DNA of 64,000 nt. Origin: Clostridiales bacterium (lineage in GTDB: Bacteria; Bacillota; Desulfotomaculia; Desulfotomaculales; VENG01). The translations under genes and the position numbers were made by a program. The stretch spans positions 124,001 to 188,000 of the forward strand of contig JAIPEW010000002.1 in assembly GCA_021736985.1 (NCBI GenBank), given 5' to 3'. The notes under the pieces are model-generated. The model did not search any database, was not told the origin of the DNA, and saw only the letters and a program-made list of their open reading frames with translations. Below are positions 34,319 through 39,155 of the stretch, in pieces; the first letter of the stretch is position 1; the number at the start of each line of letters is the position of its first letter.

Positions 34319-35299
34319 TCACTCCCTTTTGGTGCCATACATATCTTTTGAAGCCTCATAAGCTTTTATTATATCCTGGACCACGGGATGCCTGACTATA
34401 TCTTTTCCGGTAAGCTCATGAATAAAAACACTTCTAACATCTTTCAAGATGCTTCGAGCATGCACAAGTCCCGAAACTTGCCCCCGGGGTAAATCAATCT
34501 GGGTTATATCCCCTGTGATAATAGCTTTAGATCCAAATCCTATACGTGTTAAAAACATTTTCATTTGTTCGGGTGTAGTATTTTGAGCCTCATCCAAAAT
34601 TATATAAGCGTCGTCAAGGGTCCTTCCCCTCATATACGCTAAAGGTGCAATTTCTATAATATGTCTTTCTAAATATTTTTGAGTACTTTCAATACCAAGT
34701 ACATCAAACAAACTATCATAAAGAGGACGTAGATAAGGATCTACCTTTTCCTGTAAATCTCCTGGTAGAAAACCCAATTTTTCCCCTGCCTCAACTGCAG
34801 GGCGTGTAAGAACCATTCTATTTACTTCTTTATTCTTTAAGGCTTTTATAGCCATTACTACAGCCAGATAGGTTTTTCCAGTTCCTGCAGGTCCTATACC
34901 AAAAACAATATCGTTATTTTGTATAATTTCTACATATTTTTGCTGCCCCACTGTTTTAGGTTTTACTTGTTTTCCACGTGGAGTTACCATAGTAACATCC
35001 CGGGCAAGTAAAGTCAGGGCATTATCCATACCAGCTTCTATAGATTTTATTGCATAATTTATTTCGTGCAGAGTTAAACGGTTTCCGGCATGATAATAAT
35101 CTTGCAGCTGTTTTATTGCCTCCTGTGCCTGGTTAACTTTTTTCGAGGGCCCCTGAATTAATAATTCTTCCCCCCTGGTAACAACCCTCACTTCCAGAGC
35201 TTTTTCAATAAGAGCAAGGTTTTCATCCTGGTTACCAAATATTTCAGCAGCAGCTCCTACATCATCCAAGGTAAATCTTGCTTCTGAATGATCTGTCAA
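34319..35299 (-). CDS. phoH: PhoH-family ATPase
   Basis: A 326-residue PhoH-like protein with an N-terminal KH-like segment and a P-loop ATPase core: GIGPAGTGKTYLAVVMAI (Walker A) and YIILDEAQNTTPEQMKMFLTR (Walker B). Often paired with ybeY and linked to RNA metabolism. TTG start after AAGGAGGG. Order yqfC-yqfD-phoH-pgpH-ybeY matches Bacillus. Confidence 0.94.
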   Translation of the reverse strand: MTDHSEARFTLDDVGAAAEIFGNQDENLALIEKALEVRVVTRGEELLIQGPSKKVNQAQEAIKQLQDYYHAGNRLTLHEINYAIKSIEAGMDNALTLLARDVTMVTPRGKQVKPKTVGQQKYVEIIQNNDIVFGIGPAGTGKTYLAVVMAIKALKNKEVNRMVLTRPAVEAGEKLGFLPGDLQEKVDPYLRPLYDSLFDVLGIESTQKYLERHIIEIAPLAYMRGRTLDDAYIILDEAQNTTPEQMKMFLTRIGFGSKAIITGDITQIDLPRGQVSGLVHARSILKDVRSVFIHELTGKDIVRHPVVQDIIKAYEASKDMYGTKRE

Positions 35300-35314: not shown

Positions 35315-36550
35315 TTAGGGATTAAATGTTATTTCCTTTCCTATGTCTTCTAAAGCTTCTACTAGTAATTTTACCCTGATCACATTACTTGGTGTACCAG
35401 TCTTTATCTCTTCTACTTCATGGTTTAAGATTTTAATATCTTCTTCAGGAATTTTACTTCTAATATCTTCCTCAGCTTTTTTCTCTGCTCTTTTTTTAGC
35501 CTCTCCACGACTTCTTGTTTGCTTAAACCGTTTTAATTCCCTGTATTGTTCTATATGGATTTCTACGGGAATATCTATATTCCTCCATTTTGGCATCTCC
35601 TTAATAATAACATCTTTATTATACTTCTCAAAAATAATTTTTCTCGGGCCCCACACGATTATCTTTTTATCTCCCATTTTAGCACATATCCTGTTACTAC
35701 TCTCACCTGTCTTTTTTACACCCTTACTTATAATTTCACACTCTCCATATCCCTCGTACCAAACCCGGGCCCTGACAATCCCGCGGGCATGAACATATTT
35801 ATAGTCTTCATCCTTCACCTCTTGTCCATCTGCATTTTCATATTCAACTTCGGGCGGAGACACTTTTCCTGAAATTAAGACTTGGCCTTTCTTTACCGTT
35901 TCTCCCTCTTCCACCTGCGGTTCACCTTTTAGAACAAGCATTTCCTTTATCAATCCATTTTTTTGGGCAATTACATTGACTTGTTCATTATCCTTTTTCC
36001 GGGGAGGTAACGACTTTTCAGCAATTTCTATAACTGCCCTTGTACCATCTATATGTAACCCCACCCAGGCTGCACCAGGCAGACTTTTTTCTAAATATGA
36101 TGCCATCTCGCTTGTATTAATATTCCACTTAAACGTCCCGGTATGAAGCCCGGCTTTATTTGCCAGGGTTTTTACTTCTTCATCCTTTATTTTGACATTA
36201 CCACTCACATCAACTAACCATATACAAGAAGACAACATGTACATTAAAATCAAAAAAACAACTGCTCCTGCTATCATAGTCTTCTGGCGCCTGATTTCCA
36301 GTATCCAAAAAGGTAACCCGTGGCGGCCGTATATAGAAAAACGACAATTACAACTGCGAGCTATATGACGTAACGGGCGGAATGCGCTTAAACGTATGCT
36401 TGCTCTAAGGGTGTTATCACTAACCCACTTTAAATTCCAGAACCATATACCCCGGCTAGAAGCCATGTTTAATACTCTTTCTGGATACTCACCTATTATT
36501 GTTATTGTTATATAACCAAATAAAAAAGAAGTTATTTTTAACATGTTCAT
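35315..36550 (-). CDS. yqfD: Sporulation protein YqfD
   Basis: About 411 residues with the YqfD layout: an N-terminal cytosolic part, one membrane helix near residue 90 (AGAVVFLILMYMLSS), and a long extracytoplasmic region rich in Lys and Glu with the VLISGKV...VHARGIVRARVWYEG core. A sigmaE-dependent stage IV factor in Bacillus. I chose the ATG at 36550, 6 nt after GAGGTG. It follows yqfC by 10 bp. Confidence 0.9.
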   Translation of the reverse strand: MNMLKITSFLFGYITITIIGEYPERVLNMASSRGIWFWNLKWVSDNTLRASIRLSAFRPLRHIARSCNCRFSIYGRHGLPFWILEIRRQKTMIAGAVVFLILMYMLSSCIWLVDVSGNVKIKDEEVKTLANKAGLHTGTFKWNINTSEMASYLEKSLPGAAWVGLHIDGTRAVIEIAEKSLPPRKKDNEQVNVIAQKNGLIKEMLVLKGEPQVEEGETVKKGQVLISGKVSPPEVEYENADGQEVKDEDYKYVHARGIVRARVWYEGYGECEIISKGVKKTGESSNRICAKMGDKKIIVWGPRKIIFEKYNKDVIIKEMPKWRNIDIPVEIHIEQYRELKRFKQTRSRGEAKKRAEKKAEEDIRSKIPEEDIKILNHEVEEIKTGTPSNVIRVKLLVEALEDIGKEITFNP

Positions 36551-36560
36551 AATTGTCACC

Positions 36561-36845
36561 TCACTTTATAAACGTAATACTTTTTATCTGCCCCTGTATA
36601 CACATTTCATTAGGATATATATTACGAAGCTGGAGTCCCTCGCCAGTTATCTCAATTTCGCCTTCTCCCGACGCAACACGAATTAACTCTGTATTATATT
36701 GATATATCCCCCGGTGGTTTTCTAAGAACACATGCAAATCCCCCATGATAATTATCTTAGGAAGATCGAGAATTACATCACTGGGAATCTCTAATATCTC
36801 AGATAATTGTTCTTTTAACCTCATTTTTAAATCCCGCCAAGACAT
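36561..36845 (-). CDS. yqfC: Sporulation protein YqfC
   Basis: A 94-residue YabP/YqfC-family protein: DLPKIIIMGDLHVFLENHRG and a strand-rich C-terminus. It pairs with YqfD for sporulation. The ATG follows GGAGGGG, but that ribosome binding site lies in the 3' arm of a hairpin ending in TTTTTT (36846-36890), so translation or upstream transcription may be controlled there. Confidence 0.88.
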   Translation of the reverse strand: MSWRDLKMRLKEQLSEILEIPSDVILDLPKIIIMGDLHVFLENHRGIYQYNTELIRVASGEGEIEITGEGLQLRNIYPNEMCIQGQIKSITFIK

Positions 36846-36890
36846 AAAAAAACCCCTCCTTAGCCTAAACTTATGCGGCTAGGAGAGGAA
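36846..36890 (-). terminator. Terminator-like hairpin that also covers the yqfC ribosome binding site
   Basis: Minus strand: CCTCTCCTAGCC pairs, with one irregular position, with GGCTAAGGAGGGG, followed by six T residues and the yqfC ATG. It looks like a terminator for the selenoprotein gene and at the same time contains the yqfC Shine-Dalgarno. Confidence 0.65.
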
Positions 36891-36917: not shown

Positions 36918-37259
36918 CTATATATTATCTTGTTTTGCTTTATCTATAGCCTGGCTAATAAGATCCGCGGATAAACCTCCGTGAAAAGCTGGCTTACCGT
37001 TAATAGCAGTAAGCGGTAAATGAACCCGCCCTAAAAGTGAAGAAATATCAGGATATTCATTTATTTCTTCAGTATTCACGTCAATAAACTTAAAACTGAT
37101 ATTCAAATCATACTTGTCTTCCAGTACCGTTTTTAGTTCAGCAGCTTCTTCTTTCATAGTCTTCGTGCCGCAACCTGCGCACGGGCTTGGACCTCATCCA
37201 CCAGCCTGTACAGGAGCATCCAGGCCAAATACTTCTACTTGTACTAATTCATCTGTCAT
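36918..37259 (-). CDS. Small thioredoxin-fold selenoprotein (TGA = Sec22)
   Basis: Translation from ATG 37257-37259 (after GAGGTGGG) stays in frame through a TGA at 37194-37196 and on to 36918, giving 113 residues with selenocysteine at 22: VEVFG strand, then QAGG-U-GPSPCAGCG, so Sec sits four residues before a CxxC pair. After it come a Lys/Glu-rich helix, a FKFIDVNTEE strand, and LPLTAINGKPAFHGG, where the Leu-Pro is placed like the cis-proline of thioredoxin folds. The layout resembles YuzD/DUF1462-type thioredoxin-like proteins. A bacterial SECIS-like hairpin follows the TGA (37164-37183), and selD is divergent next door. Redox function is inferred; partner unknown. Confidence 0.85.
37164..37183 (-). 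promoter_or_regulatory. bSECIS-like hairpin in the small selenoprotein gene
   Basis: Minus strand: CGTGCGCA pairs with TGCG-CACG (one bulged G) around the 3-nt loop GGT. The loop starts 18 nt after the TGA and begins with G, fitting the bacterial SECIS rule (short apical loop with G, 16-37 nt from the codon). Confidence 0.78.
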
Positions 37260-37297
37260 ATTACCCACCTCACTATATTTATATATATTAATAATAA

Positions 37298-37358
37298 CAT
37301 AAAAGATCTTTATATAAAAACTATATCAGCAAGGATTTTTATATAAAGATCTTTTATG
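37298..37358. repeat. 23-bp perfect inverted repeat between the divergent selenium genes
   Basis: Arms 37298-37320 and 37336-37358 are exact complements (CATAAAAGATCTTTATATAA...), with a 15-nt spacer. It occupies the middle of the 183-bp gap between the selenoprotein and selD, where both promoters should be. It could be an operator or a short transposon remnant. Confidence 0.7.
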
Positions 37359-37442
37359 ATACTTATAAAGGATCTGATAAGGAAATAATAGAATACTAAT
37401 AGATACTAATACTACAAAAATAGTAATAAAGGTGTGAAAATA

Positions 37443-38495
37443 ATGTCAAAATCTGAAGTTAAACTAACACAAATGACTAAAAGCGCCGGATGAGCTGCTA
37501 AACTAGGGCCCGAAGCCCTGTCGCAGGTACTGCGACATCTACCCAAAAATGAAAAAAATGAACACCCTCAACTCATGGTAGGAATAGATAATTCAGATGA
37601 TGCTGCAGTTTATAGATTAAATGAATCTACTGCTATAATCAATACAGTTGATTTTTTTACACCCATTGTAGACGATGCTTATATTTTTGGACAAATTGCT
37701 GCTGCTAACGCTCTTAGTGATATATATGCTATGGGCGGCACCCCTTTGTTAGCACTTAACATTGTTTGTTTTCCTACCTGTATTACCGAGGAGATACTCC
37801 CCGAAGTAATCCGTGGTGGAGCTGATAAAGTCAAAGAAGCAGGAGCTGTAATTGCCGGAGGACATACAGTGGAAGATGATGAGCCTAAATATGGCCTTGC
37901 TGTAACGGGAACAATAAATCCCGAGCAGTTGTGCACTAACTCCATGGCCCGGGAAGGTGATATTTTATTCCTTACCAAACCTCTCGGTACTGGCATAATA
38001 AATACCGCAATAAAGGGTGAACTGGCTTCTGAAGAATCAGCTCAACAATCTATTGATACCATGATCATGCTTAACCATGGAGCAGCCCAAGCCATGATTG
38101 CTGCTGGTGGAAAAACCTGCACAGACATAACTGGATTCGGACTGCTCGGACATGCAGCGGAAATGGCTAAAGCAAGCGGGATAAGCATAGAGATTCATTC
38201 AAGTTCAATTCCTTTAATAAATGGCACTATGGATCTCGCTGCTATGGGCATGTTTCCCGGCGGTGCTTACAACAACCGTGAATATTTAAAACACGATGTT
38301 ATATTTTCCCCTGAAGTAAACACTGCATTACAATTAACACTTTTTGATCCACAGACTTCCGGGGGATTATTGATTGCAGTCCCTGGAGAAAAAGCTGAAA
38401 TTTTATCACAAGAGCTTAACAAAAAAGATGTATCCCAGGCACAAGCAATAGGTAAAGTAACTGCTAAACAGGATTACACTATAAACGTAGTTTAG
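37443..38495 (+). CDS. selD: Selenide, water dikinase with selenocysteine (TGA = Sec17)
   Basis: Makes selenophosphate from selenide and ATP, the selenium donor for Sec-tRNA. The true gene begins at ATG 37443 (after AAGGTG) and reads through TGA 37491-37493: TKSAG-U-AAKLGPEAL, where the active-site Cys/Sec and following Lys are expected. Further SelD blocks: GIDNSDDAAVYRL, DFFTPIVDDAYIFGQIAAANALSDIYAMGG, GGHTVEDDEPKYG and LFDPQTSGGLL. 350 residues. Ordinary gene calling starts it only after the TGA and loses the catalytic site. yedF follows 57 bp downstream. Confidence 0.96.
37519..37537 (+). promoter_or_regulatory. bSECIS-like hairpin in selD
   Basis: Perfect 8-bp stem TGTCGCAG/CTGCGACA with a 3-nt GTA loop. 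The loop begins 34 nt after the TGA. A shorter GGGC/GCCC pair (37506-37518) sits beneath it. Confidence 0.82.
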
Positions 38496-38500
38496 TTTAA

Positions 38501-38531
38501 GAATAAGTTGGTGACAGGCACCAACTTATTC
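38501..38531. repeat. REP-like hairpin in the selD-yedF gap
   Basis: GAATAAGTTGGTG and CACCAACTTATTC are perfect 13-base arms around ACAGG. The TTGGTGACAGGCACCAA core resembles a repetitive palindrome common in clostridial genomes (from memory). No T-run follows, so it is not a standard terminator. Confidence 0.65.
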
Positions 38532-38552
38532 CCCAAAACTGGAGGTGAGATG

Positions 38553-39155
38553 ATGACCAGAGACATAGATTGCCGGGGGCTCAACTGCCCTCATCCCGTG
38601 ATAAATACAAAAAAAGCCTTAGAGGAAAATAAGACAGGAAGCATAACAGTTATAGTAGATAATGAAACTGCCCGGCAAAATGTATCTCTTTTTGTCCAAA
38701 ACGCTGGTCACAGTATAGAAGAACGCGAAGAAAACGGCTCTTTTTATATCACAATAAATAAAACGGAAGAAAAAGATAATGAGACAAAAAAAACACCCGT
38801 AGAAGGTTCACTGCCAGCAAATCCTATTTACTTTATAAGCACCAATCTGCTCGGACAAGGTTCTCCAGATCTAGGTGCAGTTTTAATGAAAAGTCTAATG
38901 CAAACTATAACGGAGTGTAATCCTTCTCCAGAAGCATTAGTATTTATGAATTCAGGAGTTTACCTTTGCTGTGAAGGTTCAGAAGTTTTGCCTTATTTAA
39001 AAAAAATGTCCGGTGCGGGTGTTAAGATATTTGCCTGCGGCACCTGCCTGGACTATTATAAATTAAAAGGTAAATTATCTGTGGGAACGATTTCAAATAT
39101 GTTTGAAATTAACAACGAACTTATTCGTCCTAATAAAGTAATAACTATCGGTTAA
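38553..39155 (+). CDS. yedF: Selenium metabolism protein YedF
   Basis: About 200 residues: an N-terminal TusA/SirA-like domain with RGLNCPHPVINTKKALE (the CPxP motif) and a C-terminal DsrE-like domain (ALVFMNSGVYLCCEGSEVLPYL, KIFACGTCLDYY). Known from its constant pairing with selD in Sec-using bacteria, probably a selenium carrier. ATGs at 38550 and 38553; the second is 7 nt from GGAGG. It shares the selD transcript, with a REP-like hairpin between. Confidence 0.92.
   Translation: MTRDIDCRGLNCPHPVINTKKALEENKTGSITVIVDNETARQNVSLFVQNAGHSIEEREENGSFYITINKTEEKDNETKKTPVEGSLPANPIYFISTNLLGQGSPDLGAVLMKSLMQTITECNPSPEALVFMNSGVYLCCEGSEVLPYLKKMSGAGVKIFACGTCLDYYKLKGKLSVGTISNMFEINNELIRPNKVITIG

Follow-up and report, generated by a model that had tools for sequence, protein, structure and literature searches.

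A selenocysteine codon in a small thioredoxin-fold gene beside selD, with relatives in arsenic operons

In a stretch of 64,000 nucleotides from a Clostridiales bacterium (GenBank assembly GCA_021736985.1, contig JAIPEW010000002.1, positions 124,001 to 188,000; the window), the frame at 36918-37259 on the reverse strand is intact save for a single in-frame TGA at codon 22. Is this a broken gene, or is the TGA read as selenocysteine (Sec)? An earlier reading of the letters alone (the sequence-only reading) had proposed a selenoprotein of the YuzD-like thioredoxin-fold group. The translation across the TGA is MTDELVQVEVFGLDAPVQAGG-U-GPSPCAGCGTKTMKEEAAELKTVLEDKYDLNISFKFIDVNTEEINEYPDISSLLGRVHLPLTAINGKPAFHGGLSADLISQAIDKAKQDNI. 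Elsewhere in the window TGA is an ordinary stop, terminating 5 of the 41 open reading frames (ORFs) of at least 200 amino acids, so the genetic code has not changed. As judged from the sequence comparisons described below, the codon is almost certainly decoded as Sec, despite the broken look of the gene.

Of 60 relatives, 21 had a homolog, as did 42 of the 113 genomes examined in the class and 70 of 398 genomes sampled across the phylum; tblastn against plasmids and phages returned none. Most of the strong matches contain exactly one in-frame TGA, at the equivalent place, and other homologs have Cys at position 22 (for example at loci L025, L033, L034, L057 and L085). In a 61-row alignment with Sec written as Cys, position 22, Pro82 and Gly94 are invariant and Cys30 is kept in more than 90% of the rows. 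A maximum-likelihood tree, which rests on few columns and has many weak forks, contains at least 15 changes between Sec and Cys. Among ten orthologs, the differences per codon position came to 0.22/0.15/0.52 on the 5' side of the TGA and 0.28/0.12/0.57 on the 3' side, and this similarity indicates protein-level selection on both sides. The genome also encodes selC, selB, selA (just before selB) and selD, as determined by family searches and checks of selected stretches. The sequence-only reading had staked its selenoprotein call on homologs with Cys or Sec at position 22, on a codon bias that does not collapse upstream of the TGA, and on selA, selB and selC in the genome; the homologs and the genes were all found, and the third-position bias is equal on both sides.

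The TGA is followed by a hairpin, which the sequence-only reading had placed at the right distance for a bacterial selenocysteine insertion sequence (bSECIS), and its geometry bore this out. The hairpin has 8 bp and one bulge, its GGU loop begins 18 nt past the TGA, and its folding energy is -9.8 kcal/mol, all within the published bSECIS limits (loop of 3-9 nt, G within the first two loop bases, spacing of 16-37 nt, minimum free energy of -7.5 or lower; PMC13188914). Random TGAs of the window pass these limits at a rate of 10% with the cut-off at -7.5 and 5% at -9.5, so the hairpin by itself is weak proof. Plain folding of the 48 nt past the TGA gave mixed, uninformative structures and was set aside for a codon-anchored analysis. 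In 52 of the 55 TGA-bearing members, with G-U counted, codon 28 has a first base that can pair with the synonymous third base of the Cys30 codon (38 G-C, 9 A-T and 5 G-T; Fisher p = 4e-6), and no such association was present among 26 Cys members. In shuffles of synonymous codons, the window hairpin had a z score of -2.4, the TGA members averaged -1.1 and the Cys members -0.5. A search of Rfam gave no SECIS or other credible match. On these sequence-level measures the hairpin is under selection of its own. Taken together, it is the conservation of TGA or Cys across the family, the equal third-position bias and the hairpin covariation that raise TGA decoding above chance.

What kind of protein, then, does the gene encode? 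The window protein has no match in NCBIfam, and its best Pfam match, Thioredoxin_3 (E = 0.13, 12.7 bits), lies under the cut-off of 24.8, so that no assignment to the thioredoxin models PF00085 or PF13192 was obtained. AlphaFold2 models, with predicted local distance difference test (pLDDT) scores of 78.5 and 80.5, have the strand (E) and helix (H) order E-H-E-H-H-E-E-H. With these models, the first PDB match in Foldseek was both times 1xg8 (YuzD/DUF1462), and the 61-row family profile, compared with all PDB sequences, also ranked 1xg8 first (E = 4.5e-5). In pairwise profile comparisons, the hhalign probabilities were 95.5% for YuzD, 92.5% for ArsD and 50% for ArsE; these are pairwise and not database-wide values. 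ArsD and DUF1462 were earlier placed in the thioredoxin-like clan (PMC3091736). Membership of the window protein in the YuzD-like thioredoxin-fold group, as first proposed, is thus supported, with a few members of the family passing the DUF1462 cut-off. The proposed Sec before a CxxC motif held up in part: the motif is present in the window sequence (C27 and C30), yet the orthologs of the window gene have Ala, Ser or Gly in place of C27, and the family as a whole does not conserve it. We therefore discarded CxxC as the active motif; it is Cys30 that is conserved as the partner of Sec22.

The gene neighbourhoods divide the family further. Genes near 75 members were clustered and the main clusters were annotated from representatives, while other cluster names (GcvH, Lpd, LipA, LplA, OsmC, GatA/B and so on) are our own reading of the sequences. 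At ten loci, some of them cut by contig ends, the member has the setting of the window gene, with selD divergent, mostly together with yedF, and yqfC-yqfD-phoH downstream; at four loci a relative adjoins gatCAB. Counting members with flanks of at least 3 kb, 26 of 59 have Acr3, ArsA, ArsR, ArsP, ArsM, ArsC or ArsE-type genes within 5 kb (two or more kinds of them in 23 of the 26), 0 of the 11 core-located members, to which the window gene belongs, have any, and 22 of the 59 lie in neither the core nor the arsenic setting. Ten members directly adjoin acr3. At L085 and L153 the gene order is arsR-arsD-arsA-arsA followed by the member, which thus occurs alongside ArsD instead of substituting for it. 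The number of soft ligands in the loop differs likewise. The core members (14) have exactly one Sec and one Cys (mean 2.0-2.1; the window protein has 3, C27 being the extra Cys) and are always Sec-containing, whereas the ars-located members (30) have a mean of 3.8, mostly four, with a range of 3-5 Cys or Sec, and have either Sec or Cys at the Sec position.

On this basis, we think it rather likely that the window gene encodes a small, probably cytosolic thioredoxin-fold selenoprotein whose UGA22 would be decoded by SelB through the downstream bSECIS, with a Sec22-Cys30 redox couple as its most likely activity. Sequence comparison strongly supports this decoding, and it shows the thioredoxin-type fold and the conservation of Cys30 and Pro82. 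Sec22 and Cys30 are on the flexible loop leading from strand 1 to helix 1 and, with Pro82, occupy the usual site of thioredoxin-fold active sites; the conserved Pro82 is probably the cis-Pro of the fold. Sec22 may attack the substrate, with Cys30 resolving the intermediate as a selenenylsulfide, and the substrate would be a thiol-bound or soft-metalloid-bound species. We regard a selenol-thiol redox couple as most likely because the core type has a single conserved Sec/Cys pair in which Sec is never replaced by Cys. Some observations weigh against this proposal. Residues 20-29 of the loop have pLDDT values below 50, so that the proximity of Sec22 and Cys30 is tentative. After correction for phylogeny, the hairpin covariation amounts to about 2.8 independent agreeing pairs with 0 disagreeing, too few for significance, and the Cys-only members also fall slightly below zero in the codon shuffles, which blurs the shuffle test when it is taken by itself.

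In the ars-operon paralogs the loop has gained Cys or a second Sec, and the extra ligands point to an ArsD-like binding of trivalent arsenic; most likely these paralogs would hold it or pass it on. In one branch, two adjacent in-frame TGAs (TGATGA, motif CSUUGP) occur at four loci in two genomes (L062, L066, L167 and L168; Table 1), and relatives of this branch have Cys-Sec or Cys-Cys at the same place. The loop of the branch hairpin (GGA, GGG or GGU) begins 18 nt past the second TGA, and one hairpin would apparently serve both Sec insertions. No Sec-Sec pair appears in the motif table of a 2026 inventory (PMC13188914). A bolder reading, to which we give somewhat less than even credence, is that anaerobic Firmicutes possess a widespread, undescribed family of selenoproteins whose Sec would act as a soft-metalloid ligand in arsenic operons, and that the adjacent-Sec branch would combine a vicinal diselenol arsenic site with two consecutive natural Sec insertions.

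Could the window protein itself be an ArsD-like metalloid carrier, in which Sec22 and Cys30, together with the Cys27 of this sequence, take up As(III) or another soft metalloid of this kind and pass it to the genome's Acr3 pump or to ArsM? The frequent ars neighbours, the direct acr3 contacts and the recurrent arsR-arsD-arsA-arsA order described above speak for this possibility, as do the end-to-end alignment of the family profile with that of ArsD, in which CC...CG falls on the C/U...CG loop, the weak matches of some members to the ArsD-related VcpD model (see below), and the presence of Acr3, an ArsE-type protein and ArsM in the genome of the window, which lacks ArsD. As(III), however, usually prefers three ligands, and the window's type conserves only two; the window gene and its orthologs lie away from ars genes, operons that contain arsD have the family member in addition to it and not in its place, and PF06953 is not matched. 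We consider such a carrier unlikely, though the best placed of the alternatives. Less probable still, in our estimate, is a selenium-handling protein serving the adjacent selD and yedF, for instance a carrier of reduced selenium to SelD: the divergent arrangement, mostly with yedF included, is kept at nine loci of the lineage and this group is Sec-only, but the conserved gene order extends further, into yqfC-yqfD-phoH, and the neighbourhood may reflect inheritance alone, and other core members adjoin gatCAB while most relatives are away from selD. That the gene is a pseudogene with a true stop, or that TGA means Trp here, is very improbable, since beyond the TGA itself and its normal use as a stop elsewhere in the window, the same TGA persists in dozens of genomes, purifying selection acts on either side of it, and the alternative residue is Cys, not Trp.

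The features of the locus and of the adjacent-Sec branch are collected in Table 1.

Table 1 Positions in the window and, for the adjacent-Sec branch, in the respective loci
Feature	Position	Strand	Remarks
Selenoprotein ORF	36918-37259	-	113 codons, codon 22 for Sec; ends with TAG (36918-36920)
Start ATG	37257-37259	-	By sequence
AGGTGG, likely Shine-Dalgarno sequence	37265-37270	-	5 nt before the ATG; by sequence
In-frame TGA, read as Sec (U22)	37194-37196	-	TGA or Cys there in all aligned homologs
Cys30 codon (TGC), conserved partner of Sec22	37170-37172	-	Third base lies in the hairpin stem
bSECIS-like hairpin, CGUGCGCA-GGU-UGCGGCACG	37164-37183	-	Loop at 37173-37175
selD	37443-38495	+	TIGR00476, 402.8 bits; divergent neighbour
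yedF, selenium metabolism protein	38508-39155	+	TIGR03527, 203 bits
yqfC, sporulation	36561-36845	-	TIGR02856; first gene downstream
yqfD, sporulation	35315-36559	-	Followed by phoH
phoH	34319-35299		After yqfD
Adjacent-Sec member	L062:5998-6333	+	
Adjacent-Sec member	L066:5998-6333	+	
Adjacent-Sec member	L167:6350-6688	+	
Adjacent-Sec member	L168:2564-2905	+	

The divergent selD and yedF of the sequence-only reading were both confirmed by their family models. selD itself contains an in-frame TGA at 37491-37493 (SAG-U-AAK) and thus encodes a Sec-containing SelD, and its first ATG-to-stop ORF begins only at 37575. Between selD and the selenoprotein gene lies a 33-nt AT-rich inverted repeat (37288-37320 and 37336-37368; 88% complementary, 15-nt spacer); no second full copy was found in the same genome or in four relatives, and the upstream region of the nearest ortholog did not show the repeat. 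On the 3' side of the selenoprotein gene, a terminator-like hairpin seen by eye at 36852-36888 on the reverse strand (CCTCTCCTAGCC...GGCTAAGGAGGGG, then a T run) overlaps the ribosome-binding site of yqfC.

Further neighbourhoods were observed beside these. On another contig of the same genome (G000:C1), an operon-like run at L232:4535-8263 contains two Acr3-type transporters, an ArsE-type thioredoxin, ArsR and ArsM, and neither ArsD nor a family member was found in it. At L053, L070, L077, L144 and L161, family members and acr3 or further ars genes have a recurring cassette nearby, made up of GcvH-like, DGC-domain, OsmC-like, Lpd, LipA and LplA genes; the cassette, whose genes were named in part by inspection of the sequences, suggests a lipoyl-linked arsenic module. 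A Cys-only branch (GCNCGCGH-type motif; L078, L079 and L084) lies near a nitrilase gene, in some cases with MobA-like genes, and not near ars genes.

The selenoprotein family is apparently uncatalogued. No NCBIfam or Pfam family covers it, the open literature on ArsD with selenoprotein, on VcpD and on YuzD/DUF1462 yielded nothing on it, and no entry among the 119 prokaryotic selenoprotein families of the 2026 inventory was recognised as the same family, a judgement made from the table entries, so that a prior listing without a name is possible (PMC13188914). Gene finding based on stop codons would truncate such genes. The gene neighbourhood ties selenocysteine to arsenic handling, and the two-ligand core, always with Sec, set against ars members with three to five ligands and Sec or Cys, offers a clean test of Sec as nucleophile versus Sec as metalloid ligand. 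The branch with adjacent UGA codons, the most unusual part of the family, would likewise test how SelB copes with them.

How does the family compare with known systems? SaoT (NF040730), TsoX (NF045809) and other metal-linked selenoproteins resemble it in their ties to metal or metalloid gene neighbourhoods, and gave sub-threshold matches only, limited to one or two of the members (E around 0.1). The Brachyspira proteins Sec.1 and Sec.2 (redox-active disulfide protein 2), to which both Thioredoxin_3 entries of the inventory belong, are also small bacterial selenoproteins of thioredoxin fold with Sec in the N-terminal part (PMC5330540); we rejected identity with them as a different type, the window protein having no TIGR00412 match. 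The nearest NCBIfam model is that of VcpD (NF047871), an ArsD-related vicinal cysteine protein, which weakly matches the N-terminal half of ars-type members, with hits in 9 of 26 family members (best E = 8.8e-6, 25.6 bits against a cut-off of 90), and does not match the window protein. Assignment to VcpD was rejected, because these scores are far under the cut-off and the model finds nothing in the 398 phylum genomes or in control genomes. YuzD/DUF1462 (PF07315; Staphylococcus aureus, PDB 1xg8) shares the thioredoxin-type fold, the length and a Cys at the position of C30. It has a fixed CxxC and no Sec, however, whereas the present family has its Sec or Cys several residues earlier and does not conserve a YuzD-type CxxC before helix 1, though the window protein has CAGC; at the gathering score of PF07315 the window protein is not matched, while the distant members G129, G172 and G296 pass. 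Assignment to ArsD (PF06953, NF033727) was rejected as well, since neither model gave a match (a positive-control ArsD scored 135.6 bits) and true ArsD coexists in the same operons at L085 and L153. Even so, the family and ArsD are alike in the thioredoxin fold, in a Cys-rich loop after strand 1 that ends in CG, and in the ars-operon setting of many relatives, and the ArsD loop CC....CG aligns with the family loop C/U.....CG within profiles that align from end to end.
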